Shown: positions 591-52,237 of the stretch, in pieces
How the letters are laid out: each line of letters opens with the position of its first letter
Position numbering within the stretch: the first letter of the stretch is position 1
Source: Agelas oroides
Taxonomy: Eukaryota; Porifera; Demospongiae; Agelasida; Agelasidae
Direction of reading: 5' to 3'
NCBI GenBank assembly: GCA_949130485.1
Contig: OX422183.1
Location: 9,390,636 to 9,454,635 of the forward strand
DNA: 64,000 bases
The notes under the pieces: model-generated
Told to the model about the DNA's origin: nothing
Seen by the model: only the letters and a program-made list of their open reading frames with translations
The model's database searches: none
Program-made: the position numbers and the translations under genes

Positions 591-3500
591 ATGGATGCAA
601 CAACAAAGATTGCTTTGGGCTTCTTCCTCACAGCAGTAGTAGCTGCAGGTGAGCAAGTGTTGGGTATCTGCTGCTCAAGAGAGCTGTTTATTATACTGGA
701 GGTCCAGTCTTGAACAGAGATCTATATGGCCATATGTATACCACATAAGCTAGGAGAGACTTTGCAGTTATATCCTGCAATGCACAGGCATGAAAGGATG
801 GTAGTCTTATTGTCTCACAAATAGCCTTGTACCCAGGTTCCTCCCCAGCCTGGGTATGAGGCTATTTTCCTGTGTAGGCTATGGTGCTTTTTGGGGCCTG
901 TTTTGTTTACATCTATTGACTATATTGCTTTAGCATGAACTTTACTTTTGTGAGCTTTGCAGATGTTGTCAGCATTGCAAAGAACAGATTAAACGCATTG
1001 ATTTTTGGGAGTGGTTCTTCAATAATGTCTATTGCATTCACAGACAGTACCAAAGTGCCAGAGCAAGACTACAAATTTAGCAAGAGACTAACACCAAATT
1101 CTGTTTGCATTTGTGTTGATATGTGTTACAAACAGCCTGTTGATAGTAAAAGCTTCAGTGGTCTTAACAGTTGATGATGTCTGTGCTTTTACTTGGTTAT
1201 ACATATGTTGACCATTAGAATTTAGACACCCATAACTGCCCCTGATGCTTGCCTGTGTAATTTTATTTGCCAGAGCTGCTGGTCAGTTCGAGTCGTTACT
1301 GCCAAGATCCATTCTGGTACAGCATTATTCTTCCAACATGCTCTGTTAATTTTATGTCCATGTAGCTATATGGATTAGTGCACTGTTAATGATTTATTGT
1401 GTTGGTAATTTGTTGGAAGTATAAATGGGGACCAAATAGAGTTGCTGTTGTTTAGCTGTCAGCACGTGTCGGGTCATCAACTGACATGCAGTATCCTAGT
1501 TTACAGTATCTGAGGTACTTGTAAATAGCATGACATACATGTGGCTTGGTACATGGTATCTATATACATCATCTAATGTGTGTAATGGCAGTGGCATATA
1601 ACATGAGTGACGTACACCACAGACTTAAAAGTACCTTCAATATCCTGTTTATGCACTTACCCTATGAATACTTGTATGTCTACATAGGCCTACACACTTC
1701 ATTGCTAGTGGTATGAACGATGACATCACATGCAGCTTCAAAGATGGAATTCATAGCAAGTAGCTAGTAGCTACTACCAAGACTCCATGCTGATCATTGA
1801 GTACATTACATACAAGGTTGCAGCCACAGGGTACCATGTTAGCCCGATAGCTACTGCTGTGTAGCTCATGCATGCAAAAAGAAATCATGCAGATACATGA
1901 CATATGACTTGGTTTCCTTCATGTTTACACTTAAGATTGGGACCGAGTCCACTGCTGGGCAATCTTGCACAATACAGACCCAGTAGAGTGTTTGTAAGTA
2001 CTATCAGCATCTGCAAGGACTTCACTAGTCTCGTCCCCAGTACACTGATCAAGATGGCTGCTGAGTCTGTTTGTAGTAACTGTTGGTTAGGATGATAACA
2101 TAATTTGATAACATAATATGCACTGTGCATAAGCCTTGTATACACAGAAACCTGGTGGCATGTTCTGCCCTCAGGCTAGTGCCTGCATGTGAGTAGTTGT
2201 TCCACAGTATCAGTCATGTCCACTGTTGGTCAATGTGAAGCATTGGCTACATATTCTGAAGTACTTGTTTGGATATGTGTATGACAGACCACAATAAGTA
2301 AAGAGAACTGTTCAGCCACTAGTTGGGGTTGCTACACTCTTCCCAGTTAGCTGGCTGCATCATTTTGAGTAGTTTCAGATTGCAACAACTGCAGCTATAT
2401 CTGAGATCTCCACAACATAGTGACAACAAGGCTTAAATATCATGACAGAATGCCTTATTCTCTCAAATTGAATGAAACCCTTAACTCAGTCATGATCCTG
2501 TGGTACTGGGGACTAGTACTGTGAATGAGATAAAGTTATATAGAAGTGGATCTCTTCAGGAACACAAATTTCAAACATATAGTACCACAACATACTGTAT
2601 ATAGCCTTGTTTCCAGGCCTTCACTGCCTCCAGTATTGGATCACTTCCAATAAAGACAGGAAGATTTTGACTCACATGCAGTGACATTGGATAGAGCGAG
2701 GCTATACAAAATGATATAATATGTATAGAGAATATCCACAATACACACCACTAGTGTGTGGCTCACTTAAGAAGGTGTAGGGCAGGAGTAGCTTTGTTCA
2801 TTTTGGCAGTTGGGTTGGGTCAGCTACCATGACTGGGGAAGGGAGTTGGAGTTAAGGTACTTCAGTGGAACTTAGCTGTAATTAAAAAAGTGAGATCATT
2901 CCTCCTATTGTGTTCCATAATTATTTTGTCTCCCTGTTCCTTGTACCTCATTGTCCACATCTTCATGTGATCTTTAACTCCTTATTATACTTAGCAGCTT
3001 TTTTATTTCTTTACTTTGGTTTTGTCAGGAATGCTGTCTTTTCTTCACTTCATTACTGCTACTCTGTTACATTATTATCTGCAGATGCAGTGAACATAGC
3101 CCACAACACAACACTTACATATCATGGAAGAAATTCTTATCCTTCCTGGTACATGAATGGTAGGGTGGTTCCTCTTGGTCCTCTGTATCGATTTAAATAT
3201 GATACTAGAGATTTGCTAGCTATACTCACAATAGATGGGAATGAAATGTGTGGTATTATGAACGTGAGTTGCAGAGTGGAGGCCCAGACTGTATACACTG
3301 AGAGACTCAATATTTCAGGTTTGTATAATTATTTACCTGGCATGCAGGTTATTCAACATGCTGAAAGCTACTAGCTATAGCCATTTTTTGTCCATATGAA
3401 CTGTGATCTACTCCTTTGCAGGTTCCCTACCACCTCCTGAGAATGTGACAATCAGTTCTCACAACTCCCGTACTCAACTGCAATGGAAACCTCCTTACTA

Positions 3501-4971
3501 CACACTGAACATTGAATCAGATGTCATACATGTGGACCCCCACATAACACAGTATACAGTGTACATTTTTGATGCTTCAAATGGTAGCATGATTCGCAGT
3601 GTGAACACAACCGAGACAAGCATTACACCTACAAACGATATACCTCTGTGTCCCATGTATAAAGTCTCAGCTTGGAATGCTGGTGGTAAGGGTGAATTGA
3701 GTCAAACATTGCAGGAGAGCACACCTCAAGGTAAACATGCGCTAAAGACTTCCTGACTTAATAAACAGGCATGACCTTCCATCAGCTTTCACTGTTGTTT
3801 CTCTTCTAGTTGAGAAAATCAATGTTACAGTCACAGCAGAATCTGGAGCTTTACACTTACATATTGAAGTAAGGTCTCATTAATATTTTGATGGCTATTT
3901 AGCTATAACTTTCCACAGGTGAATGTTAATAAATACCTTCTATACAGGTGGATGTTGTATGCCCCAGTAGAATGCCCGAGTTCTTTCTCATCACTCTGAT
4001 GAGTGGAAGTGAAACAACCAGACATCATCAACGAAACTTCACCATCAGTCCACCCCAAATGTTGCCATGTGCACCATTCGTCCAAGAATAAGTGCAGGAA
4101 ATGCTGCAGGAACTTCTCCCATTGAAACAGTTGTAGTTGGTAAGTTACGTTTCACTAGTAATCCCAGAATTAAACTATAATGTCTCTCTCTACCATAGTG
4201 TGTTCAGGTGACAGCACAGACTCTACGACTACCGCTACCTCCACTACTGCTGTTACTACTGCTTCCAGTTCTAGAAGTGGCAGTGAGGGTAACAGGCAAC
4301 AAGGAAACAGTACCACTTTAATAGGTACTAGCTATATCCCTTTGCTCAGTTTGCTGTGATTATAACTGGCTAAACAATACTAACTGCCCCCAACTCTTTG
4401 TATAGTCGTTCTTATTGGAATAATTGCTGCCATTGTTGGAGTGTGGATTGTGGCAGCAACAGCTGGGATCATATATTGCAGAGGGCGAAAAAAAGGTATG
4501 CACAATAGTAATTATGCATAAGCACACAATGTGAATAGTATTAAATTGGGCTTATATGAGAATGATTGATCTTTAAATTAGCAGGATGCCATTTTATGTG
4601 ACAGTCGAGAAATCAAAATTTCTGTATAATTGTATGTACCGTATTAGTGTTGATCTGTATATGTGCTGGTTGTTATGTATGTGGTATGAACAGTATAAGT
4701 ATTTGCACATATACATATATACTTTTATTGTAGCCACGTTCCAAGTAGAAAAAAAAAAGATCCTTCTATGCTACAGTGTACTTTATATCATCTTCCAACT
4801 TTCTCTGTTTTTGCTTCTAATGTCTCCAGATAAAGTGAAGAACGTGAAATTGAGATGAAACCCAACCAGGCATATGAAACTATCAGTCTACCACGTCCCT
4901 CCCAGTCTAGTGCACAAGTCCACACCAAGCCATGTCCAGCTTATGAAGTTGTTGTCCAGGCTCATCACTGA
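591..4971 (+). pseudogene. Receptor gene A: Ig-FN3-FN3-TM receptor, frameshifted
   Basis: Exons read as 591-648 (signal peptide, MDATTKIALGFFLTAVVAA), 3085-3318 (Ig-like), 3422-3730 (FN3), 3810-3868 plus 3948-4139 (second FN3), 4199-4324 (Ser/Thr stalk), 4406-4495 (TM) and 4830-4971 (tail). All have GT/AG ends; introns are phase 1 except phase 0 between the two halves of the second FN3. Two single-base losses break it. A C is missing from the C-run at 4053-4056 (exon 192 nt, against 193 in B, C and E), giving a stop at 4089. One base is missing near 4841-4845 in the tail exon, so the tail ends at 4858 instead of 4971. As it stands it would make a secreted protein of about 267 residues. The broken tail still contains both tyrosine motifs in another frame. 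Either this is a recent pseudogene or the indels are assembly errors in homopolymer-like tracts. Intron 1 (2.4 kb) matches intron 1 of B and D. Confidence 0.75.
2025..2040. mobile_element. Remnant end of TAGTCTCG short element in gene A intron
   Basis: Only TAGTCTCGTCCCCAG remains here, directly after GGACTTCAC. At the same intron position genes B (9612-9677) and D (37559-37618 and 38169-38235) hold full hairpin elements flanked by this 9-bp sequence. Seen directly; inferred to be an internally deleted copy of the element that was inserted before the genes duplicated. Confidence 0.6.
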
Positions 4972-6130: not shown

Positions 6131-7041
6131 TTTTTTTCTCATTAGGTTTTTTTTCATTTAGTGCATGGGTCAGTGGATAGTCCCTTGTTGTTTTTATGCA
6201 GTTGTGGTTTCCTGGTTGATAGACTTACTCTGTTGTTTTAATGTGCACATCCTTCTAAAGATGTTTCTGATCTGTACCTATATGAACTGCAATATATGGC
6301 CTCAACATTATAGCTAAATGTATATTATTATCAGTGTATTAATGGAACCAAGGTGTATAAACACTTACTAAGACTTTGCAATTGTACAGGTCCATAGCAC
6401 TTCACCCAAACATGCAATGATTCCCTGTTTGCACTACATAGCATAAAATGATGGCTTCATTCATCAACTGATTATCATCAGAAAAGCTACTACTAGCACT
6501 TGTGTGCATGGCTGAGTATCACTTAGGGTCATTGATGATTGACATGGGTATTATTGGGTTCTACAATGTTTACCAATGGGGGATATTTAATTTGGATGGG
6601 ATTACCACATAATATTTGTTTCCCAATATACTCCTTTGTGAGATGCTGCTTCGAATCCTTTCAAATTTTTTATAATATATCATGTACATTTTGAAAACAA
6701 CAGGTCAGACCAATTTGAGCTGCCAAGTTAGGCAAATGCAAATGCAAAGTGCATGAACACTACACAAACTTTGGTTGTATGTCTGTGTAACTTTACTGTG
6801 ATTTGGATTTATACACGCAGGTATCAGTGGTGACCTCATGATTGCAGCCTAGTAGAGTTTACATGAACTGGAGCTGATCGATGCTTTTCTGCCTACCTGG
6901 TTGTCGAATGGAACAGTGGCTCCATTGAGGATCTTTATATACATTTCAGTTTCAATTAACTGGTTTCATACGAGAAGCCGTATAAGCCATATAACTAACT
7001 ACCTACATTTTCTGTGCCATCCACTTCTGTTCTATTTCCCG

Positions 7042-7145
7042 ACATGTATTTTGAAGAAGCATGAAATTGAGATGAAACCCAACCAGGCGTATGAGACTGT
7101 CACCAGACCTCAACCAGCAATACACCTTCACACTAGACACCTAGA
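7042..7145 (+). pseudogene. Decayed receptor tail exon, upstream of gene B
   Basis: The DNA matches the last exon of B/D: the coding stretch for EIEMKPNQAYETVT is kept, then similarity fades into a short CA-rich repeat and the second tyrosine motif is lost. No other receptor exons are seen near it. Its paralogue sits at the same place in unit 2 (35075-35199). It is either the remnant of a deleted receptor copy or a stray duplicated exon. Confidence 0.65.
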
Positions 7146-8132: not shown

Positions 8133-11100
8133 ATGGATACAACAATAAAGATTGTTTTGGGCTTCTTCCTCACAGCAGTAGCTGCAGGTGAGCAAGTGTT
8201 GGGTATCTGCTGCTCAAGTCTGACAAGAGAGCTATGTGCAGCCTTGAACATGGTCATATGTATACCACAATAGCTAGGAAGGATGGTTGGGGTAACTTGT
8301 AGTGCCATTGTTATAATTATTTATACTGCACAAAGATAAGAGTACCATAGCTTTAGATGCTAGTCTGTTTGTCTCCCCCATAGCCTTGTACCCCGGCTCC
8401 TCCCTAGCCTGGGTATGAGGCTATTCCCCCATGTATGGTGCTTTTTTGAGGCATGTTCTGTTTACATCTATTGACTAGATTGTTTTAGTGTGAAATTTAC
8501 TTTTGTGAGCTTTGCAGTTGTTGTCAGCATCGCAAAGTAAACATATTGATTTGTGGGAGTGGTTCTTCAATGATGTCTACTGTGTGCTTATCCATAGCAT
8601 TCACAGACATGCAGTACCAAAGTGCTAGAGCAAGACTACAAATTTAGCAAGAGAATAACACCAAATTCTGTTTGGTTGATATATGTTCAGCCTGTTGATA
8701 GTGAAAGCTTCAGTGGTCTGACCAGTTGATGAAGTCTTTACTTTTACTTGCTATGGATTTTACATATTATGTTGAACATTAGGCACCCATAACTGGCCCT
8801 GACGGTTGCCTGTGTAATTTTATTCGCCAGAGCTGCTGGTCAGCTCGAGTCATCACTGCCAAGACCCATCCACAGCATTCTTCTTCAACTTGCTCTATGT
8901 CCATGTATACGGATTAGTGGATTATGCACTGTTGACGATTTATCAAGTTCTTTGTTGGAGATTTGTTGGAAGTATAAATGGGAACCAGATAGAGTTGCTG
9001 TTGTTTAGCTATCAGCACATGTCGGTCATCAACTGACATGCAGTATCCTAGTTTACAGTATCTGAGGTACTTGTAACAGCATGCATGACATACATGTAGC
9101 TTGGTACATGGTATCTATATACAACATCTAATGTGTGTAATATCAGTGGCATATAACATGAGTGACGTACACCACAGACTTAAAAGTACCTTCAATATCC
9201 TGTTCATGCACTTAACCTATGAATACTTGTATGTCTACATAGGCCTACACACTTCATTGCTAGTTGTATGAATGATGACATCACAGCTTCAAAGATGGAA
9301 TTCATATCATGTAGTACTACCAAGACTCCATGCTAATCATTATTTCTCTTCAATGACTGGCACCCTTACAAACAAGGTTGCCGCCACAGGGTAACATGTT
9401 AGCACAATAGCTACTGTCACTACTGTGCAGCTCATGCATGCAAAAAGAAATCATGCAGATACATGTATATTACACCTATGTCTTTGTAGTAGTTTTTCCT
9501 CCACATTTACACTTAAGATTGGGCTCCACTGCTGGGTAATCTTGCACAATACAGACCCAGTAGCTAATGTAGAGTAGCTGTAAGTACTATCAGCATCTAC
9601 AAGGGCTTCACTAGTCTCGTGCCCAGACTCCTTTTGGAAAAATCGATTTTTCCGAAAGTCGTTTGTGCACGAGACTAGGACTTCACATCTACTACTAGAG
9701 ACAGTATAGCATAAGCGAACAATTTCTCATAACAAGCAAAATCCAATGTACACTGAACAAGATGGCTGCTGTGTCTGTTTTGTAGTAACTGTTGGTGAAT
9801 ATAGGATGATAATATATTATGCACTGTGCATAAGCCTTGTATACACAGAAACCTGGTGGCCATGAAACATGTTCTGCCCTCAGGTTAGTGACTGCATGTG
9901 AGTAGTTTCAATTATCCTTGTTGTTCCACAGTATATCAGTCATGTCCACTGTTGGTCATTGTGAAGCAGTAGCTACATATTCTGAAGTACATGTTTGGAA
10001 TATTTAGATATGACAGATGCACAATAAGTAAAGAGAAATGTTCAGCCACTAGTTGAGGTTGCTACACTCTTCCCAGTTAGCTGGCTGCATGCATCATTTG
10101 AGTGGTTTCAGATTGCATGATCTTTAGTCCAATGCAAGCAACTGCAGCTATCTGAGATCCCCATAACATAGTGACAATAAGGCTTAAATACCATGACAGA
10201 ATGCCTTATTCTCTCAAATTGAGTGAAACTCTTAACTCAGTCATGATCCTGTGGTACTGGGGACTAGTACTGTGAATGAGATAAAGTTAGAAGTGGATCT
10301 CTTCAGGAACAAAAATTTTAAACATATAGTACCACAACATACTGTAGCCTTGTTTCCAGGCCTTCACTGCCTCCAGTATTGGATCACTTCCAATAAGGAC
10401 AGGAAGATTTTGTCACATGCAGTGACATTGGATAGAGCGAGGCTATACGAAATGATGTAATATGTATAGAGAATATCCACAATACACACCACTAGTGTGT
10501 GGCTCACTTGAGAAGGTGTAGGGCAGGAGTAGCTTTGTCCATTTTGGCAGTTGGGTTGGGTCAGCTACCGTGACTGGGGAAGGGAGTTGGAGTTAAGGTA
10601 CTTCAGTGGAACTTAACTGTAATTAAAGAAGTGAGATCGTTCCTCTTATTGTGTCCCATAATTATTTTGTCTGCCTGTTCTCTTGTACCTCATTGTCCAC
10701 ATCTTCCTGTGACCTTTAACTCACTATTTAACTTAGCAACTTTCTATTTCTACCTTGAATTTTTCGTGTTTTTTTTTTTCAGGAAAGCTGTCTTTTCTTC
10801 ACTTCATTACTGCTACTCTGTCACATTGTTATTACTACAGATGCAGTGAACATAGCCCACAACACAACCATAACACTTGAATTTCGTGGAAGAAATTCTT
10901 ATCCTACCTGGTACATGAATGGTAGGGTGGTTCCTCCTGGTCCTCTGTATCGATTTAAATATGATACTGGAAAGTTGCTAGGTATACTCACAATAGATGG
11001 GAATGAAATGTGTGGTATTATGAACGTGAGTTGCAGAGTGGAGGGCCAGACTGTATACACTGAGAGACTCAATATTGAAGGTTTGTAATTATTTACCTGG

Positions 11101-14100
11101 CATGCAAGTTATTCAACATGCTGAAAGCTACTAGCTATAGCCATCTTTTGTCCATATGAACTTAGCCTCGTGCCTCGTACCGAGGCTGTGTGCCTCGTAC
11201 CCAGGCCCCACACGGCCTGGGTACGAGGCTAATATGAACTGTGATCCACTCACTTGCAGGTCCCCTACCTAGTCCTGAGAATGTGACACTCAGCTCTCAG
11301 AACTCCTCCACCCAACTGCAGTGGAAACCTCCTTACTACACAATGAATGAGGAATCAGATGTCATACATGTGGACCCCCACATAACACAGTATACAGTGT
11401 ACACTATTGATGCTTCAAATGGTAGCATGATTCACCGTGTGAACACAACAGAGACAAGCTTTACACCCACACACAATATACCTCTGTGTCCCATGTACCA
11501 AGTTTCAGCTTGGAATGCTGGTGGGGAGGGTGAATTGAGTGAGCCAGTGCAGGAAAGCACACCTCAGGGTAAACAAGCTAAATTAGACTTCCTGAACTAC
11601 AGGTAAGAACTTTCTGTCAGCTGTCACTATTATTTCTCTTCTGCACCTCTCTAGTTGAGAATATCAATGTTACAGTTACAGCAGAATCTGGAGCTTTACA
11701 GTTTCATATTGAAGTAAGATCTCAACATTTTGATGGCTGTTTCCCTATAGCTTTTCACAGGTGAATGTTAATAAATACCATCTATATGCAGGTGGGTGTT
11801 GTATGCCCAAGTAGAATGCCAGAGTTCTTTCTCATCACTCTGATGAGTGGAAGTGAAACAACCAGACATTTTCAACGAGACTTCACCATCAGTCCACCCC
11901 CAAATGTTGATGTGTGCATCATTCGTCCAAGGATAAGTGCAGGAAATGCTGCAGGGACTTCTTCCATTGACACAGTTGTAGTTGGTAAGTTGCATTCCAG
12001 ACTCCACTGTTAACCAGAATTAAACTGTCCAAACCAAATTGTTTTCATCACTATATTTTGCTATAGTTTGTTCAGATGACAGCACAGACTCTACTACCAC
12101 TGCCTCTGCTACTACTGTTTCTACTGTTACTAGTACTGAAAGTGAAAGTGCGGGTAACAGGCAGCAAGGAGTCAGTACCACATTAATAGGTAATGTGTGC
12201 ATGTAGAAGGCACTGCAATTAACTGTTATAGCGATCCATTTGCTATGAACATAACTATGCATTTGGTTACCAACTGCTTTTAACTATTTTGTTTCAGCCA
12301 TCAGTATTGGAGTCATTGCAGCCATTGTTGGAGTGCTGATTGCAGCAGCAACAGTCACAATCATATGTTGCAGAAAGTATAAGAGAAGGAAAGGTACATT
12401 AGAAATAAGCATTAGAAGTCATATACAGCTCGGTGTCTGGAAAATGCGGATCAACGGATCGGCTGACCACGGACTACAATGCGAAAGTGGGCTGGAATCA
12501 CCCCCGCTACAATTGCATTCAACTGTAATCTCACTCGTCCTTTTGTCGCTTGGAGGACAAAAACTGGTGCAACAGATTCGCCTCAGCTCCACGTCGCATC
12601 GTTCGTCCGTAGGTCAAAAGCTGGGGCGTGGCACTGGCATGACATGCCCAGACCCCCTCGCACGCTTTTCGGGGGTGGTCTGGGGACGAGACTAGGCATG
12701 GCACACCATGACAAGCTAACTTCATTCCCAGACCCCGATTGCCTGGTCTAGGACGCGCTACCCAACCTTTGCGAAAAAAGTGCAGTTATTTTTTTTCCCA
12801 GAAGAAAGTCTCCAAAGTTGCCATTTAAACGAGTGTAAGTTGTAGATACGTAAACGAAACTAGCCTGGGTCAGTAGTAGGGTGTCCAACCTGAAAAATGA
12901 AAGTGTGCGCATTGATTCCAAAACAGTGGTTTTTATAAGAGCTAACCCAGGAAAGAAAGAAACCACAGAAGGATCGGGTTCGAATGTCAATTTTATTCAG
13001 AAACAGTGCACTTTTCCGGAAGTGGTAAGTCCCGCAAAATGGTACGTGACCAATATCAAGCCATGGGCCTAGTTATCTCCCAAAACACTTACCCTCACAG
13101 ATCTAATGTACAACTCACTGCCACGTTTAAAGTAGCCTCGCTGGCAGTGGTCAGTGGTTTAGGAACGAAATAATCTTACCGGTTACGGCGAACTTAAATT
13201 TTTGGTCACGTGCCATTTTTCGGAATTTACCACTTCCGGAAAAGTGCGCCGATCCCAAAAGAAATGACATGCGAACCCAATCCGTCTGTGGTTTCTTTCT
13301 TACCTGGGTTGGCTCTTATGAAAACCACTGTTTTGGAACCAATGCGCACACTTTTGTAATTCAGGTTGGACACCCTATCAGTAGGTAGCTATATAACCTA
13401 GACTAAGTAGCTGTCAATGCCGCGCGCGCCACATGGCCATGCGCATTCCACCACGTGCTAATGGGCGGTGTCTATTTCAGCTACATGCAGTTAGTTAGTT
13501 AGTGGTGGTTAGAGATATAAATGAGTTTTAATAAAATATCTTACCATGACTTGTAAAATGAGGGGGGGTTGGAAGATGAAGTGGTGAGGGGTGGATGGAG
13601 AGTGGCGGCTTTGACTTTTTCAGTGGGTTCACCTTGTTTATGGCAAGACAAACTACACAGTGACAAAACAAAACAACTTGGACTCCAGGGGACAGGCTAC
13701 ATAAACACAGACAAGCCTTCCCCTGGCACCCCTCTCGGAGCACCAGGGGACAGACTACATACATGACAGACAAGCCTTCCCATGGTACCCATCTCAAAGT
13801 GCCATGAGACAGACTACACCAACACATAAAGCCTTCCCCTGGCACTCTTCACAGAGTACTCCAGGGGACAGACTACACCAAGACAGATGATTCTTTCCCT
13901 GGAGTCCCCCTTAGAGCACCAGGAGACAGATTACAAAGAGACAGACAAAGCTTCTTCCCCTGAAGCTTCTTTCAGAGTACCAGAGGACAGACTACATAAA
14001 GAAGACCAACAGACTAACCTTCCTCTGGAGCCCTTCTCAGGGTACACCAGGGAGGTGGGTGGGTGCACTGCTCTGGGTGACAGTGCTTGGCGGCTGTTGC

Positions 14101-15532
14101 AGCTGGCTATAGAAAAGGCCTGGTCAGCGCTGGATGGCCCGTTCTTCTGCTTTCTTGTACAAACGAGCGTAGAAAACGGTCCTTTCACCTTGTAGGGACT
14201 CCATTTGTGGCTTTTTAGGCAGCTTTCAATCTGAAGGAGCGTTCTTTGGTTGGAGGGCCCTGACTATCGAACGCTCGGTAATGAGTGGGTATGGTCAGGG
14301 TCATGAACCTGCAAAGAACTTCTGAAGGAAGCTGTGGATCAAGTTTCTCGGGCTATCTCCTGGCAGAAATGGAAATACAGGTGAAAGAAGGTGGGACTAG
14401 TCTAAACAAGACCTTCAGGAAATATTATTTAGTATTTAAAGGGTTTTAATTAAAAAAAACAAAAACGCTCACCTGCCTCTAAAGTAGGGAGATTTTTTGC
14501 CTGAGAAACAATGAATTTACTTACCATGGCCTTAGTAAAGCTTGGATGGTCAGTTTTTATGCTCTGTGGGTACAGATTTCTGTGATGGTCAGTTGTCATG
14601 TAATCAGGAAATCTGCCTCACAAAGGGCTAAAAATCGGGTATGGAGAGTGGTTGGCTCTACATCGGATTCCAGTTGGCACAGTACATGCTAGGAGCCACT
14701 ACTATATCTGTATGCATCATCCCTACCTTGTTTGCATACTTTTTGGCATGCCATCCCTACATCATGGGGGTCTTCCTACCACAAGTTCACAACCTTTACT
14801 GGCAGTTCATGGGTGTAGCCTCGTTCTCAGGCCACTTCCTCCTCGCACATGGCCTGGGAACGAGGCTAGTATGATCCAGCAGTATGCCTTGTAGGTAGCT
14901 ATCAGGTAGCTTAGAGTGATACCTTGGTGGCATTATGTTATACGTGACCTCTTAATAACTGATGATGGCGTCGTCAGTTTTTGGCCACATTATTATATGT
15001 TGGCTGGATACCTTCCTTGGTCCGTATTTCCACTTCTGCTTGGAGCACTGGAAACTTGTGTCAAAGCTTTATTGACACATTCTCTGTGGGTTTATGACCT
15101 TTGCCACACCCACTGTCTTAGTTTGACAGCTAGCTTTTACATTGTTTTCATTTTCTTTTATGTATTAGTGTTGATCTGTATATGTACTGGTTATGTATGT
15201 GGTATGAACAGTGTAAGTATTTGCACGCATATCCTACATATCCTATCCACAGGCCTACTCCAGCTTCAGAGGACCTATATGTTGGTTGAAACGGCATTTA
15301 TACTTTTGTAGCCACATTCCAAAAAACTGATCCTTCTGTGCTACAGTATACTTTATATCATCTTCCAACTTTCCTTCTCATGTCTCCAGATAAAGTGAAG
15401 AAGAGAGAAATTGAGATGAAACCCAACCAGGCATATGAGACCGTCACTCCACCAAGTCCCCCTAGACCTGCAACACAAGTCCACACTAAACCATGTCCAG
15501 CTTATGAAGTTGTTGTCCAGGTTCATCACTGA
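8133..15532 (+). CDS. Receptor gene B: Ig-FN3-FN3-TM with YETV/YEVV tail, intact
   Basis: Exons: 8133-8187, 10841-11080, 11260-11568, 11655-11713, 11792-11984, 12067-12189, 12298-12393, 15390-15532. Joined they keep one frame of 405 residues: signal peptide 1-18, Ig-like 19-98, FN3 99-201 (LQWKPPYY, SAWNAGG), second FN3 202-285 (SAGNAAGTS), Ser/Thr stalk 286-326, TM 327-351 followed by CRKYKRRK, tail 359-405. The tail holds NQAYETV (Tyr374) and PAYEVV (Tyr397), 23 residues apart, with PPSPPR between them, which fits a class II SH3 ligand (PxxPxR). There are many N-x-S/T sites. I infer a plasma-membrane receptor whose tail is bound by SH2 proteins once phosphorylated; the ligand is unknown. 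Exons 6-7 are nearly identical to those of gene C and differ in type from A and D, so B is a mosaic. Intron 7 is swollen to 3 kb by transposons. Confidence 0.8.
9612..9677. mobile_element. Short hairpin element, 9-bp target duplication
   Basis: Inverted ends TAGTCTCGTGCCCAGAC and their complement enclose a palindromic centre (AAATCGATTT). It is flanked by GGGCTTCAC and GGACTTCAC (8 of 9 match). It lies in intron 1 of gene B. The 9-bp duplication points to Mutator-like transposition. Confidence 0.7.
11163..11231. mobile_element. Short inverted-repeat element in gene B intron 2
   Basis: Ends TAGCCTCGTGCC and GGTACGAGGCTA, flanked by perfect 9-bp copies of ATATGAACT (11154-11162 and 11232-11240). 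It is absent at the same intron position in A and D, so it inserted after the genes separated. Confidence 0.75.
12431..13497. mobile_element. Mutator-like element copy in gene B intron 7, one end lost
   Basis: It begins CGGTGTCTGGAAAATGCGGA after the flank TATACAGCT, exactly as the complete element at 17514-18152 in reverse orientation. The other inverted repeat is missing: similarity stops near 13497. It carries a nested element (12877-13377). The ORFs that cross it are readings through transposon DNA. Confidence 0.7.
12877..13377. mobile_element. Nested foldback element, hAT-like
   Basis: Ends TAGGGTGTCCAACCTGAA and their complement; the inverted repeats run over 100 bp, and further complementary blocks continue inward (the TTCCGGAAGTGG and TGGTACGTGACCAA stretches). 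Flanked by 7-8-bp TCAGTAG copies. The gene C paralogue at about 17705-17720 has the uninterrupted site, so this insertion came after the B/C exchange. Confidence 0.75.
13685..14055 (+). repeat. Minisatellite, about 60-bp unit, six degenerate copies
   Basis: Units start near 13685, 13743, 13802, 13861, 13919 and 13979, each with a CCAGGGGACAGACTACA-like core. It lies in intron 7 of gene B. Open frames across it on both strands are a by-product of the period. Confidence 0.8.
14816..14868. mobile_element. Very short TAGCCTCG inverted-repeat element
   Basis: Ends TAGCCTCGTTCTCAGGCC and GGCCTGGGAACGAGGCTA enclose only about 17 bases. No clear target duplication. Same family as 50081-50161. Confidence 0.6.
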
Positions 15533-36276: not shown

Positions 36277-37558
36277 ATGGATGCAACAACAAAGATTGTT
36301 TTGGGCTTCTTCCTCACAGCAATAGTAGCTGCAGGTGAGTAAAGTGTTGGATATCTGCTGCTCAAGAGAGATAGCCTATTTATTACACTGGAGGTCCAGT
36401 CTTCAACAAAGATCTATATGGCCATATGCATACCCCAATAGCTAGGAAGGACTTTACAATTATATCCTGCAATGCATGGGCATGAATTTAAAGGATGGTT
36501 GGGGTAACTTGGAATGCCATTCTTTTAATTATGTATACTGCACAAAGATAAGAGTACCATAGCTTTAGATGCTAGTCTGTTTGTCTCACAAGCTAGTGCC
36601 CCCCATAGCCTTGTACCCCGGCTCCTCCCCAGCCTGGGTATGAGGCTATTCTCCCATGTATGGTGCTTTTTGAGGCATGTTCTGTTTACATCTATTGACT
36701 ATATTGTTTTAGTGTGAACTTCACTTTTGTGAGCTTTGCAGTTGTTGTCAGCATCGCAAAGAAAGTATTTATTTGTGAGAATGGTTCTTCAATAATGTCA
36801 ACTGTATCCAGAGCATTCACAGACAGTACCAAAGTGCCAGAGCAAGACTACACATTTAGCAAGAGAATAACACCAAATTCTGTTTGTATTTATGTTGAGA
36901 TGTGTTTTACAAACAGCCTGTTGATAGTAATAATTTTATGTCCACATAGCTATATGGATTAGTAGATTGTGCACTGTTGACGACTTATTCTTTGTTGGAA
37001 ATTTGTTGGAAGTATAAATGGGAACCAGATAGAGTTGCTGTTGTTTAGGTGTCTGGCATCAACTGATATGCAGTATCCTAGTTTACAGTATCTGAGGTAC
37101 TTGTAAATAGTACGACATACATGTGGATTGGTACATGGTATCTATATACTTCATTTAATGTGTGTAATGTCAGTGGCATATAACATGTACACCACAGACT
37201 TCAATATCCTGTTTATGCACTTACCCTATGAATACTTGTATGTCTACACAGGCCTACACAGTTCATTGCTAGTTGTATGAATGATGACATCACAGCTTCA
37301 AAGATGGAATTCATAGTGTGTAGTACTACCAAGACTCAATGCTATATATAATCATTGAGTCATTATACTGTCACTACTGTGCAGCTCATGCATGCAAAAA
37401 GAAATCATGTATATTACCACCTAAATCTTGTTATTAGGTTTTCCTCCACGTTTACACTTAAGATTGGGAGTGAGTCCACTGCTGGGCAATCTTGCACAAT
37501 ACAGACCCAGTAGCTAATGTAGAGCTGTAAGTACTATCAGCGTCTACGAGGACTTCAC

Positions 37559-38235: not shown

Positions 38236-41200
38236 GGACTTCACAGCTACTACTAGAGACAGGCAGAAGCGAACAATTTCTCATAACAATGACATCAAGC
38301 AAAATCTGATGTACACTGAACAAGATGGCTGTTGTGTCTGTTTGTAGTAACTGTTGGTGAATATAGGATGATAGTATAGTATGTACTGTGCATAAGCCTT
38401 GCATACACAGAAACCTAGTGGCCATGAACTTCTACCCTTAGGCTAGTGACTGCATGTGGGTAGTTTCGATCATCCTTGTCGTCCCACAGTATCCGTCATG
38501 CCCACTGTTGGTCAATGTGAAGCAGTATAGCTACATACTCTGAAGTACTTGTTTGGATTGGTTTTAATATTTAGTTGCGGGCTTGTGTGATATGACAGAT
38601 GCACAATAAGTAAAGAGAACTGTTCAGCCACTAGTTAGGATTGCTACACTCTTCCCAGTTAGCTGGCTGCATCATTTTGAGTAGTTTCGAATTGCATGAT
38701 CTTTAGTCCTTAATGAATGCAAGCAACTGCAGCTATCTGAGATCCCCACAACATAGTGACAACAACAAGGCTTAAATATCATGACAGAATGCCTTATTCT
38801 CTCAAATTGACTGAAAACCTTAACTCAGTCATGATCCTATGGTACTGGAGACTAGTACTGGGAATGATAAGCATGGTATTGTTAAAAGTGGATCTCTTCA
38901 GGAACAAAATTTTAAAGCATATAGTGCCACGACATGCTGTAATGCATGCAGCCTTGTTTCCAGGCCTTCACTACCTCCAGTATTTGATCGCTTCCAGTTT
39001 GAAAAGGGACAGGAAGATCTTGTTACATGCAGTGACATTGGATGGAGCGAGGCTATATAAAATGATATATATAATAATTCAGAGAATATCCACCATTTGC
39101 ATCACTAGTGTGTGGCTCACTTGAGAAAGTGTGGGGCAGGAGTAGCCTTGTCCATCTTGGCAGTTGCTAGGCTGTATAGCTACCATGACCGGGGAAGGGA
39201 TTTGGAGTAAAGGTACTTCAGTGGAACTTAGCTGTAATTAAGAGAAGTGAGATCATTCCTCCTATTGTGTTCCATAATTATTTTGTCTGCCTGTTCCTTT
39301 GTACCTCATTGTCCACATCTTCATGTGATCTTTAACTTCCTATTTTACTTAGCAGCTTTTTTATTTCATTACTTTGGTTTTGTCAGGAATGCTGTCTTTT
39401 CTTCACTTCATTAATGCTACTCTGTTTCATTATTATCTGCAGATGCAGTGAACATAGCCCACAACACAACCACAATACTTGAATTTCGTGGAAGATCTTC
39501 TTTTCCTCTCTGGTACATGAATGGTAGTGTGGTTTCTCCTGGTCCTCTGTATCAAATTAGGGATGATCCTAGTACTGGAGATTTTCTAGGCATACTCACA
39601 ATAGATGGGAATGAAACTTGTGTTATTGTGAACGCGAGTTGCAAACTGGATGGCCAGACTGTATACACTGAGAGACTCAATATTTCAGGTTTGTAATAAT
39701 TTACCTGGCATGCAGGTTATTCAACATGCTGAAAGCTACCAGCTATAGCCATCTTTTGTCCATATGAACTGTGATCTACTCCTTTGCAGGTCTCCTACCA
39801 CCTCCTGAGAATGTGACAATCAGTTCTCAAAACTCCTCTGCCCAACTTGAGTGGAAACCTCCTTACTACATAATGAATGAGGAATCAGATGTCATACATG
39901 TGGACCCCCACATAACACAGTATACAGTGTACACTATTGATGCTTGTACCAGGAGAATTTTTCACACTGTGAACACAACAAAGACAAGCTTTACACACAC
40001 ACACAATATACCTCTGAGCCCCATGTACCAAGTCTCAGCTTGGAATGCTGGTGGTGAGGGTGAATTGAGTGAGCCAGTGCAGGACAGCACGCCTCAAGGT
40101 AAACAAGCTAAAGACTTCCTGAACTACAGGTGAGAGCTTTCTGTCAGCTGTCATTGTCAGCCTTTATCTCTCTTCTGTACCTCTAGCACCTCTAGCACCT
40201 CTAGTTGAGAATATCCATGTTACAGTTGCAGCAGAATCTGGAGCTTTACAGTTTCATATTGAAGTAAGATCTCGATATTTTGATGGATATTTAGCTAGTC
40301 ATAGCTTTCCACAGGTGAATGATAAATACCTTCACATACAGGTGGATGTTGTATGCCCAAGTAGAATGCCTGAGTTCTTTCTCGTCATTCTGAGGATTGG
40401 AAGTGAAATAACCAGACATCATCAACGAGACTTCACTATCAGTGCACCCCCAAATGTTGATGTGTGCACCATTCGTCCAAGGATAAGTGCAGGAAATGCT
40501 GCAAGGGACTTCTCCCATTGACACAGTTGTAGTTGGTAAGTTCCCTTTTGGCCTTCACTATTAATCCCAGAATTAAACTATAATGTCTCTCTACTATAGT
40601 ATGTTCAGGTGACTCTACGACTACTGCTGCCTCCACTACTGCTGTTACTACTGCTTCTAGTTCTAGAAGTGGCAGTGAGGGTAATAGCCAACAAGGAAAC
40701 AGGACCACTTTAATAGGTACTAGTCTTAATTGGCTATCCCTTTGTTATGATTATAACTGGCTGAACAATACTAACTGCCCCCAACTCTTTGTCTAGTCGT
40801 TCTTATTGGAATAATTGCCACCATTGTTGGAGTGATGATTGTGGCAGCAACAGTTGGGATCATATATTGCAGAGGACGTAATAAAGGTATGCAAAACGCT
40901 CTACAAGGATTTTAAAGAAGTTAATCCAGTAGGGAGGCGGGCTGCGCATGTGCAGTAGTCAGCATATCCTAGACACAAGGGCAAGCAGGTGGTAAATCTG
41001 AGACAAGAGAGCAGGAGCCATTAGTGTCTAAAATCTGGCCTCCCACCCAGGTTCTGCCCCCATCAGATTGGCTATAGTGGTCAAATTTCTCTATCAGGGT
41101 ATACAGTTCCTGGTATGACATGGTTGGGCAGGGCTTCTTGAGGGGACACAATCATGAATAATTATGAATAAGCACACAATGTGAACGATTTTCTGTACAC

Positions 41201-43489
41201 CCACTTAAGCAGGCACATTTGAGAGTGCAGCTGAAAATATACTAAATTGGGCTCATATGGGAGTGATTGATCTTTAAATTAACAGGATGGAATTTTATGT
41301 GACAGTCAAGAAATTAAAATTTCTGTATTTAGTGTTGATCTGTATATGTACTGGTTGTTATGTATGTGGGATGAACAGTATAAGTATTTGCACACATATA
41401 TATACTTCGGTAGCCACGTTAAAAAAAAATCCTTCTATGCTACAGTGTACTTTATATCATTTTCCAACTTTCTCTGTTCTGCTACTCATGTCTCCAGATA
41501 AATTGAAGAAGAGAGAAATTGAGATGAAACCCAACCAAGCATACGAGACTGTCACTCTACCATGTTCCTCCAAGCCTGCAACACAAATTCACCCTAAGCC
41601 ATGTCCAGCTTATGAAGTTGTTGTCCAGGCTCATCACTGAGGGTTGAATATAATTACCATTTGCTATACATAAGTGACACATGCACTGGGATGCAGCTAG
41701 CTATTGCAGATATGTACAGATATAGTTATATCATCACTCCATATTTTGTGCTATGATCAGAGACTGTTCTGATCAACTGACACTCATAATTATGGTTTAT
41801 GGTATAGTAGGTATGTTAAAATGACATGTAATATACATGTGACTTGTTACCTGGTATCTAACAACATCTGCTGAGTGACGTGCATCATGAATGACATGCA
41901 TCACTGACTTAAAAATTCTGTTTATGTACTTACATTATGAATAATTGTATGGTACATACATTACATTTATATCGTAATTGGTTGTTTGCTTGCACAGCAG
42001 TGATTACATCACAGCCTCAAAGGATGGTATTCGTAGCATGCAATACTATTAATCACTGCCATAAACTTGCATGAGTGGTACCCTTGCATGCAATGTGGGA
42101 GCCACATAGCCCCACTTTGTATTAGAGACTTTTCATACATAACTATAGCTCCCAATGGAAAAACTGAAGGTGTAGCAATTTCAAATCTATTATATCTATC
42201 TACTTACAATACATAAAAACCAAACTACAGTGCATCCAGTTCATGCACAGAGCTACTCTTTGGCCAATTTGTCTTGGATTCAAAACAGTCAGTGAAGTAT
42301 CCAAAATTGGGTGAAGTTGTTCAAATGACTTTTGAAGCTTCACTAATAAAACCAATGGATTTCACTTGATGTGTCTTGTGCAAAAACACCTGGACCACTC
42401 AATTTTATAGCTATCAAGAGACTATTCTAGCTATTATTTTATGTTGCTAGTACATTTTCCACAGAAAAATTAATTGAAGTGACTTCACAATGAAATGAAA
42501 TTTAGCACGTCCCACCATTAGTAGTGTATTAAAATAGCTGTGCATGGATATCTACCAGTATTGAAAGTATGATTATACGGAATCTATAATATAAAATCAA
42601 ATATCCCACATTTTGGCATGGCATATATAACCTGTCTGCTATGCATATTATTGGAAGAACAAAGGTCATAGGAACAATTGAAGGGCTGAGAAGGTCTAAC
42701 CCAAAATCAAGTACTGGAAATTGCATGAATTGTGCAAATATGCAATAAAAAAACGTACATACCATATGAACATGTGGTCCAAAATTTCAAATTCTTAAAT
42801 GTTCAGCATCTTCTGAAATGCATTTTAAGAGTATCCCCATGTTAGGGGGGGCTAACTCAACATTTGTGGGTTAGACCACTATGCTTCTCAGCCCTTCAAT
42901 TGTAACTCTAGTTTACAAAAAAGATCACTTGGTTCTTGGATTTTAGCATATATACTTGATTCAAGATTATTTGATCTTTGATTTTCTTAATTATTTCATT
43001 AGGTCCTCTAGCTTACATACCAATCGAAATCTAGCTTGGTAATGAACCACAGCTTGCTGGAAAAAAAAGGCAGGCCTAGATGTTACATGCTACTAGACAT
43101 AATCAACTAAAAATGGATCTGTGGAAATGCGGTATATGACTTGTTTCATGCAGTGAGTTTTCCATTATTGCATCATTATGGCATAATTGCATGACTGATT
43201 AGTGATTTCGAAACTTACAAAACAACTTGTGGGAAGCTAGCTTATGCTATATACAAAATGTACGATATGCATGTATACACATAAGAGTTTTCCATTCATC
43301 ACATCATTATCACATAAATGTATGGATTGTTGCAGATGTAATCTGTTGGTGTCGTCATTATTACAACTATAGAAAGATGGCTGTGGTGATTGTCTTTCTT
43401 GCTATAGTATGTAGCTGTTAGTGAATATAGCAGGTAACCATTTATTTTATAGAACAGTATATAGTACATGTCTGGTGTACACAAGTGGT

Positions 43490-43578
43490 AATTGAGATGA
43501 AAATCAACCAGGCATATGAAACTGTCACTCTACCAAGTCCCTCCAGGCCTGCACTAAGCCATGTCCAGCTTATGAAAA
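43490..43578 (+). pseudogene. Third decayed receptor tail exon
   Basis: The stretch coding EIEMKPNQAYETVTLPSPSR is recognisable (with Lys-Ile in place of Lys-Pro), then the CCATGTCCAGCTTATGAA block, after which similarity stops. About 12 bases are missing in between. No upstream receptor exons. Confidence 0.6.
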
Positions 43579-45496: not shown

Positions 45497-48407
45497 CTAG
45501 TCTTGGTGATTTATCTGACTATACAGAACAGGGTCATCATTGGTTGGTGGCCGGACTTTAGTCTGTTTCACTGGATCAACCTCTGCATACACCCCTTTGT
45601 GTGGACTCCCGGCTTGAGCTGGAGGGCTGGGTGGGAGTAATGGGTCATCTGATCTCCCACTGCCTGCTGAAGAGGTGCTTTCAGCCGAGTCTGATGACTT
45701 AGTCCGGCCTCTAGCTCTTTCAGGATCTCTGGTTACTGGTCTGCTTGTGGTCTGTTCATAATCTGCCTCAAGTACTTCAGGTTTATCACGTGAAGGGCTG
45801 TTAGGGTTAAAAAATCACTTATAAGAGGTTGAACGGGGGTTCCCAAACGTCCTTCCACAATCTCTGCAGAGCTCAAATGGTTAGAGAACGTCTACTAGCC
45901 TTCGACAGGCCTAGTTATACTAACTGGTAATGTGTTTGTGTGAACTGTGTTGTTATTGATCTAATTTTCAAACAATTCCGCTAATTGTTCGAACACCCCC
46001 CCTTCCTGGGAAAAACCGTTAATGTATTCCATAGAATTCAAACACCAGAAATGAAATTATTTAATTTTGTTTGAATAATTAGACTCATTATGGTAACTTA
46101 TTATTATGGACTTTAAAGTTCAATTGCAGTATTTGGCACACCTTTTCGAGTAGTAGTGATCAGTTTGGTCTGAGGGATCTACTAAAGAGAAGAAGATGCA
46201 GTTCACATATAGCACTGACCTAAACTGCCCATTATGATGTACCTTTACTGTTTCTCCTTTTATAGTTTCTGTAACAAATGTATCCAACTGTTGCCATGGC
46301 AATCAGTGCTCCAAAAATGGCTGCAATGACTCCAATAACACTGGCTAAAACAAAATAATTGGAAGCAGTTAAAGAAAATCAGTTATGTTCATAGCAAGGG
46401 GGTTGTTATAACAGTTCATTCAGTTTAGTGACTTCTCTGCACCACTTACCTATTAATGTGGTACTGTTTCCTTGCTGCCTGTCTCTCTCACGTTCACTTT
46501 CAGTACTAGAAGCAGTAGTAACAGCAGTAGTGGAGGCAGTGGTAGTCATAGAGTCTGTGCTGTCACCTGAACAAACTATAGTAGAGAGACATGATAGTTT
46601 AATTCTTGGATTAATAGTGAAGGTCAAAAGGGAACTTACCAACTACAACTGTTTCAATGGGAGAAGTTCCTGCAGCATTCCCTGCACTAATCCTTGGACG
46701 AATGGTGCACACATCAACATTTGGTGGTGGACTGATGGTGAAGTCTCGTTGATGATGTCTGGTTGTTTCACTTCCACTCATCAGAGTGATGAGAAAGAAC
46801 TCAGGCATTCTACTTGGGCATGCAACACCCACCTGTAGATAGAATTATTAACATTCACCTGTGGAAAGCAACTAACTATAGCTAAATAGCCATCAAAATA
46901 TTATTGAGACCTTACTTCAATACGAAACTGTAAAGCTCCAGATTCTGCCGTGATTGTAACATTGATTTTCTCAACTAGAGGTACAGAAGAGAAATAACAG
47001 TGACAGCTGACAGAAAGTTCTCACCTGTATATAATTTAGTTCAGGAAGTCTTTTACCTTGAAGTGTGCTCTCCTGCAGTGGTTCACTCCATTCACCCTCA
47101 CCACCAGCATTCCAAGCTGAGACTCGGTACATGGGACACAGAGGTATATTGTGTGTGAGTGTGAAGCTTGTTTCTGTTGTGTTCACACTGCGAATCATGC
47201 TACCATTTGAAGCATCAAAAATGTACACTGTATACTGTGTTATGTGGGGGTCCACATGTATGACATCTGATTCAATGTTCATTGTGTAGTAAGGAGGTTT
47301 CCACTGCAGTTGGGTGGAAGAGTTCTGAGAACTGATTGTCACATTCTCAGGAGGTGGTAGGGGACCTGCAGAGGAGTAGATCACCGTTCACATGGACAAA
47401 AGATGGCTATAGCTAGTAGCTTTCAGCATGTTGAATAACTTGCATGCCAGGTAAATAATTACAAACCTTCAATATCGAGTCTCTCGGTGTATACAGTCTG
47501 GCCCTCCACTCTGCAACTGAGGTCCATAATACCACAAGTTTCATTTCCATCTATTGTGAGTATAGCTAGCCAATCTCCAGTACTGGCAACATATTTAGTT
47601 CGATACCAAGGAGGAGTAACTGGACTACCATTCATGGACCAGGCAGGAAAAGAAATTGTTCCATGATATGTAAGTGTTGTGGTTGTGTTGTGGGCTATGT
47701 CCATTGCATCTGCTGCAAATAAAATGTAGAAGTGCAAAATTGAGACTGCAGTATATTTCCTGACAAAACCAAGAATTCCAGGGAAAATGGCAGAATTGCC
47801 ATTGAAGGCATGCAGATGCAATGCAGTTAAGTGGATGAGAGGAGATAAGTGCATGAAAAATGAAGTCACCGTGCACCCTTGAAGGAGATTATGATGGCAA
47901 CAAAATGGTGGAAAAGGAACATAAAACCAGCTACCCCTCCCCCCCCATTCCCATTTCAGGTTCATGCAATAACATCAGAGAGCATGGGTTCAATCAACAC
48001 GTCCATCACACAGTGCATCTTGGTAGCTACACAGATTTTCACGTGCGACTCCTCTAATATATAGTTTGGATTTCTGGATTGAATAGGTGTGCACCACTGG
48101 GGATGAACATTGGACTTTAATACACCTACCCAACATTAATCGTGTCCTGGGGGTTGGGCATACCAGTTCTTTTCGCAGTTGTTTCCTTGCACAATAAAAT
48201 TATTACAGCTGGGTATATTCATCTACATGCGGGGTTGGGCATACCAGTTCTTTTCGCAGTTGTTTCCTTGCACAATAAAATTATTACAGCTGGGTATATT
48301 CATCTACATGCAACTGTGTGCGTGGACTTACTTGCTGGGCACATCAACGATAATAAAATCGCTGTTAGTGCGACGATATCCATCACTTGTAAACTGTGCA
48401 CGTCCAT
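45497..48407 (-). CDS. Receptor gene E: Ig-FN3-FN3-TM with ITIM-type tail, intact
   Basis: Exons in transcript order: 48407-48332, 47709-47467, 47365-47057, 46974-46916, 46832-46640, 46575-46450, 46344-46243, 46181-46142, 45797-45497. They join into one frame of 482 residues: signal peptide 1-25, Ig-like 26-106, FN3 107-209, second FN3 210-293, Ser/Thr stalk 294-335, TM 336-360, tail 370-482. The last exon has no ATG of its own. Its end reads HKGVYAEVDP ... DPVLYSQINHQD: Tyr453 in YAEV and Tyr475 in VLYSQI, which fits the ITIM consensus (V/I/L/S-x-Y-x-x-I/V/L), 22 residues apart. Further tyrosines lie at 379, 380 and 396. Proline and serine rich stretches (LLPPSPPAQ) precede the motifs. I infer an inhibitory-type receptor engaging tandem-SH2 phosphatases. 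Convergent to D. The Ig acceptor is a CAGCAG tandem. Confidence 0.78.
48151..48311. repeat. Two-copy 81-bp tandem repeat near gene E exon 1
   Basis: GGGTTGGGCATACCAGTTCT starts at 48151 and again at 48232; the copies are virtually identical. They lie in intron 1 of gene E, next to the donor side. Confidence 0.85.
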
Positions 48408-48950: not shown

Positions 48951-48954
48951 GCCT

Positions 48955-52105: not shown

Positions 52106-52150
52106 AACCCGCTCACGCTCGCCCACAATGCTCTGCAAATCCCCTACTAG
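52106..52150 (+). mobile_element. 3' end of a third Helitron-like element
   Basis: GCTCACGCTCGCCCACAATG, a short TGC-rich tail, then CTAG|T, as at the 3' end of 22429-22989. The 5' end was not found, so its extent is unknown. Confidence 0.5.
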
Positions 52151-52167
52151 TAAGTGAGTGAACTTAC

Positions 52168-52237
52168 TTGTTGCGCATATTGACGACAAAACTGCCAGTG
52201 TGATGATATTCACCGCCTTCGAACCGTGTACGTACAT
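52168..52237 (-). pseudogene. Orphan signal-peptide exon F of the receptor family
   Basis: MYVHGSKAVNIITLAVLSS followed by ICAT and a phase-1 donor A|GTAAGT: the same length class, N-terminal pattern (M-x-V-x-x-x-x-x-V) and splice phase as exon 1 of C and E. No Ig or FN3 exon follows on the minus strand before gene E. The following DNA carries a Helitron-like 3' end. Either the body of the gene was lost or the exon feeds a diverged gene I do not recognise. Confidence 0.5.

Follow-up and report, generated by a model that had tools for sequence, protein, structure and literature searches.

Sponges reject foreign tissue, and the receptors responsible are still unsettled. Here, we ask what kind of system is encoded by a cluster of receptor-like genes with immunoglobulin (Ig)-like and fibronectin type III (FN3) domains in Agelas oroides, located in a stretch of 64,000 nucleotides (the window; C1:9390636-9454635, where C1 is contig OX422183.1 of assembly GCA_949130485.1). 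An initial annotation had seen in it a candidate immune or self-recognition locus. We searched the 141-contig assembly (259.3 Mb) and directly read the window, C1 9.07-9.27 Mb, seven other stretches and another eight short loci; beyond these, the receptor array described below is known from match tables alone. Array genes on C1 outside the window bear labels such as 9504, 9509, 9246m, 9088p and g9565m. Our data show a larger array of two receptor classes built on one exon cassette, probably a paired-receptor recognition complex of a siliceous demosponge with the window in its middle.

The window lies within a larger receptor array

Everything previously listed for the window was found: the orphan first exon, the three relics of tails and the five paralogues, with genes A, B and C on the plus strand and D and E on the minus strand. 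The reported end points are exact, 591 being the first base of the signal-peptide exon of gene A (591-648) and 52237 that of the orphan minus-strand signal-peptide-like exon (52237-52166). The exons are ordered as signal peptide, Ig, first FN3 (FN3a), second FN3 (FN3b, two exons), Ser/Thr stalk, transmembrane (TM) segment and tail. Gene B is intact, its eight exons joining into an open frame of 405 residues, and so is gene E, with nine exons and 482 residues, all joins in both being GT-AG. For genes A, C and D, the script-joined exons are partial and the remaining exons rest on protein matches. Gene A has two one-base length differences from gene B (second FN3b exon, FN3b-2, 192 versus 193 nt; tail, 142 versus 143 nt), and gene C has one (FN3b-2, 194 versus 193 nt). 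The proposed module-by-module phase-1 introns hold for most of the gene, but the intron within the second FN3 is in phase 0 and that within the tail of gene E is in phase 2.

Self-comparison of the window revealed three direct and two inverted block copies, with alignments about 300 to 2600 bp long and 74-94% identical, and a B-like FN3a query matched the other four window copies with E values of 1e-58 to 3e-54. These lengths, identities and E values exclude chance as the source of the paralogy. In the genome search, 27 distinct FN3a copies were found at E 6e-14 or better, 25 of them spread over 477 kb of C1 (9.088-9.565 Mb) and single copies lying at 10.135 Mb and 10.546 Mb; the next match, at 11.41 Mb, had an E value of 5e-6. 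Stop codons fall inside the FN3a match in two of the 27 copies and in none of the other 25. The window occupies the middle of this larger array: the members inside the window lie within 52 kb as claimed, but the locus extends far past the window. A clustered receptor family with birth-and-death is supported by the 27-copy array, the relics and the pairwise comparisons.

In addition, some database relatives, P0005, P0034 and P0082 (also P0008 and P0054), bear FN3a or tail sequences and are listed with longest contigs of equal length within each set (2,569,759 and 822,528 bases, respectively); long public contigs may hold relatives of the array.

Two tail classes share one exon cassette

The cassette is common to genes A-E, as proposed, but the single tyrosine tail attributed to all of them is not, a second, unrelated type being present in D and E. 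These two genes lack the short tail downstream and were at one point taken to be tail-less, an idea abandoned when tblastx among the downstream regions uncovered the second tail. The array comprises two receptor classes on one exon cassette: class S, with a short tail (A, B and C), and class I, with a two-exon tail (D and E). The S tail is a single exon (D.LKKREIEMKPNQAYETV...PAYEVVVQ.HH) with two Yxx[VI] motifs, and the I tail consists of exons T1 (..DPSDQTDNYYSK) and T2 (SPSLGGPVPLYKPPV.EVVYVTSE...LLLPPSPP...LVYAQL...VQYAQIEHQD).

Tails were assigned to genes, themselves known from sequence and not from transcripts, by position downstream on the same strand. On this basis, 11 FN3a copies are followed by an S tail (1.4-7.9 kb downstream), 11 by an I tail and five by neither tail seen. 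T2 matched 11 distinct genomic places at E ≤0.01, the weakest being that of gene D (0.007), and each of the 11 follows an FN3a copy of its own strand at a distance of 1.3-4.4 kb. An S tail at 9390086, 9.2 kb downstream of the relic 9380, was left unassigned to it. First exons also go with class where found, SP1 preceding A, B and C and SP2 preceding D and E. Weaker SP1 matches precede 9088p and 9144p (E 0.002-0.005), and, within the stretches read, no SP2 was found ahead of any other I gene. The S tail matched 24 places at E ≤1: 22 on C1, of which 21 fall within 9.09-10.36 Mb and the other at 16.79 Mb, and two on C12. Some S tail exons lack an FN3a match in their vicinity (C12:8972731-8976004; C1:9982030, 10037079, 10088903, 10357333 and 16790855); they may be relics or parts of other receptors sharing this tail.

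Inhibitory receptors typically carry two cytoplasmic immunoreceptor tyrosine-based inhibitory motifs (ITIMs), [SIVL]xYxx[IVL], some 20-30 residues apart, and immunoreceptor tyrosine-based activation motifs (ITAMs) read YxxL/I x6-8 YxxL/I. We analyzed 28 T2 sequences (six tails of this genome and 22 database relatives found with one T2 query, the deleted T2 of gene D omitted) and 54 S tails (gene B and 53 database relatives found with the S-tail query). A strict ITIM is present in 25 of 28 I tails at the first motif and in 26 of 27 at the second (one row ends early), with a spacing of 21-22 residues in 27 of 28. The first-motif misses are E and P0029, which have Gly at -2, and g9246m, which lacks both tyrosines. 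A third tyrosine (VVYVTS), found in 24 of 27 I tails, does not fit an ITIM. Among the seven I genes of the genome whose T2 was read, both motifs are strict in four and one is strict in E, whereas g9246m and D have none. The tail of 9246m (C1:9241587-9241922) is otherwise open, its ITIM tyrosines being replaced (LVFAQL, VQHAQI), and this gene may be a decoy or a decaying receptor.

In S tails, both tyrosines and Val/Ile at +3 (mostly Val) are kept in 54 of 54 sequences while identity to the query drops to 50%. The tyrosines are 23, 20 or 18 residues apart in 50 of 54 and 25 or 35 in the others. Only five first motifs and two second motifs of the 54 fit a strict ITIM, and the ITAM pattern was found in none of the 54. 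In this genome, with three relic tails omitted, YET[VI] is present in 13 of 13 S tails and the second YxxV in all 11 that read far enough. Tandem ITIMs are therefore a feature of class I, and the S tail is not an ITAM and mostly not an ITIM.

Ectodomains do not follow tail class

Class is associated with strand (S, 10 plus and one minus; I, two plus and nine minus; Fisher p 0.0019, a test chosen after the pattern was seen and applied to non-independent tandem copies). Convergent S/I neighbours include B/D, C/E, 9504/9509 and 9233/9246; the opposite arrangement is seen in 9369 (I, plus)/9375 (S, minus). With the BLAST setting used, the inverted homology in B/D, C/E and 9504/9509 starts with the Ig exon or slightly ahead of it. 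It extends to the stalk in C/E, to the TM exon in 9504/9509 and into the intron following TM in B/D, so that first exons and tails are not included. Its identity is 85-94% in B/D, 84% in C/E and 85-97% in 9504/9509. In B/D, the part from FN3a to the intron is 94% identical and the Ig part 85%, and 123 bp at 100% identity lie past an insertion of about 500 bp in the TM-tail intron of gene B. This insertion (window 12877-13376), palindromic by eye, is missing from gene D at the matching point and is therefore probably younger than the tract shared by B and D. The 9233/9246 pair has cassette pieces at 73% and 68% and short pieces elsewhere (62-97 bp), and 9144/9155 is 73% identical across the Ig part and 86% across the remainder.

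FN3a and Ig trees were built omitting seven of the 27 FN3a copies (six with no letters read, and the fragmented relic 9380); 17 rows remain in the FN3b tree, from which A and C (frame-damaged) and 9132 (no match) were also omitted. The untyped 9100m and 9155m are in the trees and outside the class counts. Class changes needed numbered seven (FN3a), six (Ig) and six (FN3b), compared with averages of 5.2-5.8 for shuffled labels, and a single ITIM clade was rejected in each tree (approximately unbiased test, p 1.1e-5, 1.6e-7 and 6e-42, respectively). These data indicate that ectodomain relationships do not match tail class. The S gene 9504 and the I gene 9509 are sisters in all three trees (support 100/99, 100/99 and 100/100), their Ig domains sharing 98% identity (next best, 49%). 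In g9565m (C1:9565069-9566879), Ig belongs to one main clade and FN3a to the other, each split supported at 100/100, indicating exon shuffling.

Comparison of seven neighbouring pairs led us to reject the idea that every such pair shares its own ectodomain. Partner-specific likeness covers all three domains in 9504/9509, both FN3 domains in 9144/9155 (9155 having no known tail) and, narrowly, Ig and FN3a in 9369/9375. Gene B is closest to D in Ig and FN3a, but not vice versa.

The distal Ig exon is the most variable part of the cassette

Ig is the most variable exon of the cassette. Among the five window genes, the ratio of nonsynonymous to synonymous differences per site (pN/pS) was 1.57 for Ig (bootstrap 1.02-2.85) and 0.58 for FN3a, and it was 0.42 for FN3b-2 (three genes); the bootstrap over codons gave P(Ig<=FN3a) 0.0006. 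Without the two frame-damaged genes, the Ig ratio was 1.27 (0.77-2.58). Ig also exceeded FN3a in 9144/9155 (1.43 versus 0.24) and in nine diverged genes (0.92 versus 0.54). It is fair to say that, for a large part of the family, the Ig exon is either less constrained than FN3 or has diversified episodically; the ratios suggest possible positive selection on the Ig exon.

These ratios bear on the possibility that the locus is mostly a decaying duplication array whose tails are conserved through recent common ancestry rather than use. Three of the five window genes are damaged, relic tails are present, and g9246m has lost both ITIM tyrosines, as decay would predict; but the low FN3a and FN3b-2 ratios, the stop-free FN3a match in 25 of 27 copies and the tyrosines kept in every one of the 54 short tails, at identities as low as 50%, make this explanation improbable.

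Domain identity and host

The Ig-like domain was supported by an AlphaFold2 (AF2) model of the gene D Ig exon and structure alignment with VIA-align, in which the model adopts the Ig fold and most resembles the Ig domains found in Rst, NCAM, UNC-5 and DSCAM. A Foldseek search with the Ig-only model gave no match below E 0.001. In an AF2 model of the database protein P0002 (Ig, intron read-through and FN3), the FN3 part was poor, and no PDB match was obtained at E ≤0.001. The F-strand Cys is present in 17 of 17 aligned Ig domains and the B-strand Cys in 13 of 17. Likeness to FN3 was seen by profile, five FN3a copies together matching an FN3 domain of PTPRF (E 2.4e-4); a match to Pfam fn3 had E 0.012, short of the Pfam cut-off.

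The Ig and FN3a likenesses, and a short tail that is not an ITAM, would also fit cell-adhesion or guidance-type molecules of the immunoglobulin superfamily (IgSF) with a non-immune role, in which the tails anchor or sort the protein (YxxV serving as an endocytic YxxPhi signal). In our judgement, however, an ITIM pair at 21-22 residues, two tails on one cassette and fast turnover are unusual for structural adhesion genes, and we consider such a role unlikely.

That the host is a sponge, as the initial annotation proposed, agrees with arrays of silicatein/cathepsin-like exons at C4:288-302 kb and C11:396-435 kb. A silicatein fragment used as query matched these arrays; in silicateins, Ser takes the place of the catalytic Cys of cathepsins. 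In three silicatein-like exons on C11, Ser-Tyr replaces the catalytic Cys-Trp: a DNA search with a degenerate pattern encoding C-[GA]-x-S-Y-A-F hit these three identical sites, all in the C11 exons (reversed control, 0). Of four loci near silicatein matches (L036-L039), three have Cys-type (cathepsin) motifs alone and the fourth has no motif. The exon arrays, three exons having Ser-Tyr, fit a siliceous demosponge.

Features of the window

The coordinates are collected in Table 1. Two further open frames were noted by eye: one at 22565-22993 is Arg-rich and repeat-like, possibly derived from a mobile element, and one at 32703-33125 has a stretch resembling the start of an FN3 domain.

Table 1. 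Receptor genes, relics and exons located in the window (S, short tail; I, two-exon tail)
Feature	Position	Strand	Remarks
Gene A (S) signal-peptide exon, SP1	591..648	+	ATG, GT donor; 95% to SP1
Gene A Ig exon	3085..3318	+	
Gene A FN3a, FN3b, stalk, TM exons	3421..4494	+	FN3b-2 (3948-4139) short by one base
Gene A S tail exon	4830..4971	+	One base shorter than in B; motifs YETI, YEVV
S-type relic	6892..7137	+	Ig fragment of 11 residues (6892-6924, weak match) and tail exon piece (7051-7137)
Gene B (S, intact) signal-peptide exon, SP1	8133..8187	+	
Gene B Ig exon	10841..11080	+	No B-strand Cys
Gene B FN3a (first FN3) exon	11260..11568	+	Profile of five copies matches PTPRF FN3
Gene B second FN3	11655..11984	+	Exons 11655-11713 and 11792-11984; phase-0 intron between
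Gene B Ser/Thr stalk exon	12067..12189	+	
Gene B transmembrane exon	12298..12393	+	
Gene B S tail exon	15390..15532	+	YETV, YEVV, stop codon
Gene D (I) tail exons	17272..17472	-	T1 17472-17424, T2 17365-17272; T2 deletion removes both ITIMs
Gene D FN3b (2 exons), stalk, TM exons	18190..18939	-	
Gene D FN3a exon	19038..19346	-	
Gene D Ig exon	19449..19694	-	B-strand Cys kept; AF2 confidence (pLDDT) 91.8
Gene D signal-peptide exon, SP2	19911..19988	-	77% to SP2 of E, E 1e-12
S-type relic	34921..35195	+	Short Ig fragment and tail pieces
Gene C (S) signal-peptide exon, SP1	36277..36334	+	
Gene C Ig exon	39443..39688	+	
Gene C FN3a, FN3b, stalk, TM exons	39789..40873	+	FN3b-2 (40342-40535) long by one base
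Gene C S tail match	41488..41637	+	YETV, YEVV
S-type tail relic	43491..43576	+	
Gene E (I, intact) tail exon T2	45497..45797	-	GVYAEV followed by VLYSQI (strict ITIM) and stop codon
Gene E tail exon T1	46142..46181	-	DPSDQTDHYYSK
Gene E FN3b (2 exons), stalk, TM exons	46243..46974	-	
Gene E FN3a exon	47057..47365	-	
Gene E Ig exon	47467..47709	-	
Gene E signal-peptide exon, SP2	48332..48407	-	
Orphan signal-peptide-like exon	52166..52237	-	Weak likeness to SP2, 35% identity

Discussion

Several observations weigh against reading the array as a paired-receptor recognition complex, a reading that we nevertheless hold to be probable. Just two of the five window genes are intact, and gene D has lost its ITIMs through a deletion in the last exon. 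The Ig domains of A, B, C and E have no B-strand Cys. Because the sequences behind the motif counts were found by likeness to one tail, these counts are tilted towards conservation. Partner-specific ectodomains are not general among the seven neighbouring pairs, 9088/9100, 9233/9246 and C/E having no such likeness. The Ig excess in pN/pS is absent in 9504/9509 and in 9369/9375/9384, and maximum-likelihood analysis did not show omega >1 for Ig, nor any significant departure from 1, the best values being 1.4 for five genes (2dlnL 1.83) and 0.7 for eight. None of the 18 TM matches listed has a charged residue in the TM core; because of this, and because the S tails are not ITAMs, an activating role for class S is a guess. 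Finally, the complex is described from the genes of a single assembly.

Vertebrate paired receptors (KIR, LILR, SIRP and Siglec) are likewise clustered IgSF genes, with related ectodomains on differing tails, tandem ITIMs of the form [SIVL]xYxx[IVL] and sequence sharing between members. Related ectodomains with different tails are also what the trees and the 9504/9509 pair reveal here. In contrast to the vertebrate receptors, the sponge ectodomain is Ig-FN3-FN3, and the non-ITIM partner has a two-YxxV tail. A vertebrate-type activating partner has a charged TM residue, which none of the 18 TM matches listed contains in its core.

The comparisons with Botryllus FcoR and Hydractinia Alr were made by description only. 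FcoR (PMC12065747) is described as an IgSF system at an allorecognition locus, with ITIMs and 'core' YxxI/L/V motifs, gene pairs and haplotype complexity; unlike the sponge genes, it is Ig-Sushi-Ig-Ig, and its pairs are FF with FcoR rather than two tails on one cassette. In Hydractinia, a single interval holds at least 41 Alr-like IgSF loci, many of which resemble pseudogenes (PMC11067881), with ITIMs reported (PMC12065747); an FN3-FN3 cassette and two-class convergent pairs are not mentioned in the parts of PMC11067881 consulted. Sponge aggregation factors have also been proposed for cell recognition, but they form an extracellular proteoglycan complex, different from ITIM receptors (PMC11999971). 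By analogy, the array may work like vertebrate or Botryllus paired receptors, and we claim no membership of a named family.

We infer an immune or self-recognition use of the array, allorecognition being one of several possible uses. In the proposed mechanism, S or I receptors, related in their ectodomains, would use the variable Ig to bind a surface ligand of self or of microbes, and Src-type kinases would then phosphorylate the tails. I tails would recruit a tandem-SH2 phosphatase and damp the response, S tails would dock other SH2 proteins and promote it, and the balance of the two signals would set tolerance versus attack. Cassette copying between inverted S/I neighbours may allow certain partners to go on binding similar ligands. 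That an effector would be available for the I tails is supported by a report of Shp2, Grb2, Crkl and Sos in the sponge Amphimedon (PMC7260276).

Which ligands such receptors would read is less certain. Paired receptors elsewhere evolve against pathogens too, and the genes may be innate receptors for microbes or symbionts rather than self, the ITIM/YxxV pairs reading bacterial or algal surface ligands. A birth-and-death array with relics, divergent distal Ig domains and exon shuffling would suit this use, to which we give a sizeable minority chance; but the same evidence fits allorecognition equally. A dedicated allorecognition (histocompatibility) complex, in which shared alleles engage I receptors and lead to fusion and mismatch leaves S receptors unopposed, would match the large single-locus IgSF cluster with ITIM tails seen in Botryllus FcoR and Hydractinia Alr (PMC12065747, PMC11067881) and the allograft rejection reported for sponges (PMC5450542, PMC9505182). 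The database relatives differ from the copies read, the best being 92% identical over a 50-residue tail, but they may come from other species or be unread paralogues, and we regard this alternative as somewhat more doubtful than microbial recognition. Equally tentative is a fuller version, in which a demosponge histocompatibility complex consists of convergent S/I pairs, its Ig-to-TM cassette being exchanged between inverted neighbours and its tails (and first exons where read) remaining class-specific. If true, it would mean ITIM-balanced self-recognition in Porifera, inherited from an animal ancestor or of independent origin.

According to a 2025 review, the proteins proposed to mediate allorecognition are not conserved between sponges, cnidarians and ascidians, and ITIM-type signalling is a point of convergence from cnidarians to mammals, with ITIM receptors at allorecognition loci in Botryllus and also in Hydractinia (PMC12065747). 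Ig-like and FN3 domains have been counted in a sponge transcriptome, ITIMs being absent from the portion of that account consulted (PMC12723187). In the open-access literature searched, including the portions consulted of PMC11999971, PMC5450542, PMC12723187 and PMC9505182, we found no description of sponge receptors of this kind. A cluster of sponge genes that places tandem-ITIM and YxxV tails on a shared receptor cassette would carry the ITIM logic into Porifera, and the array supplies genes and motifs that can be tested for differences between individuals, for Shp2 binding by the tails and for matches between pairs and ligands.

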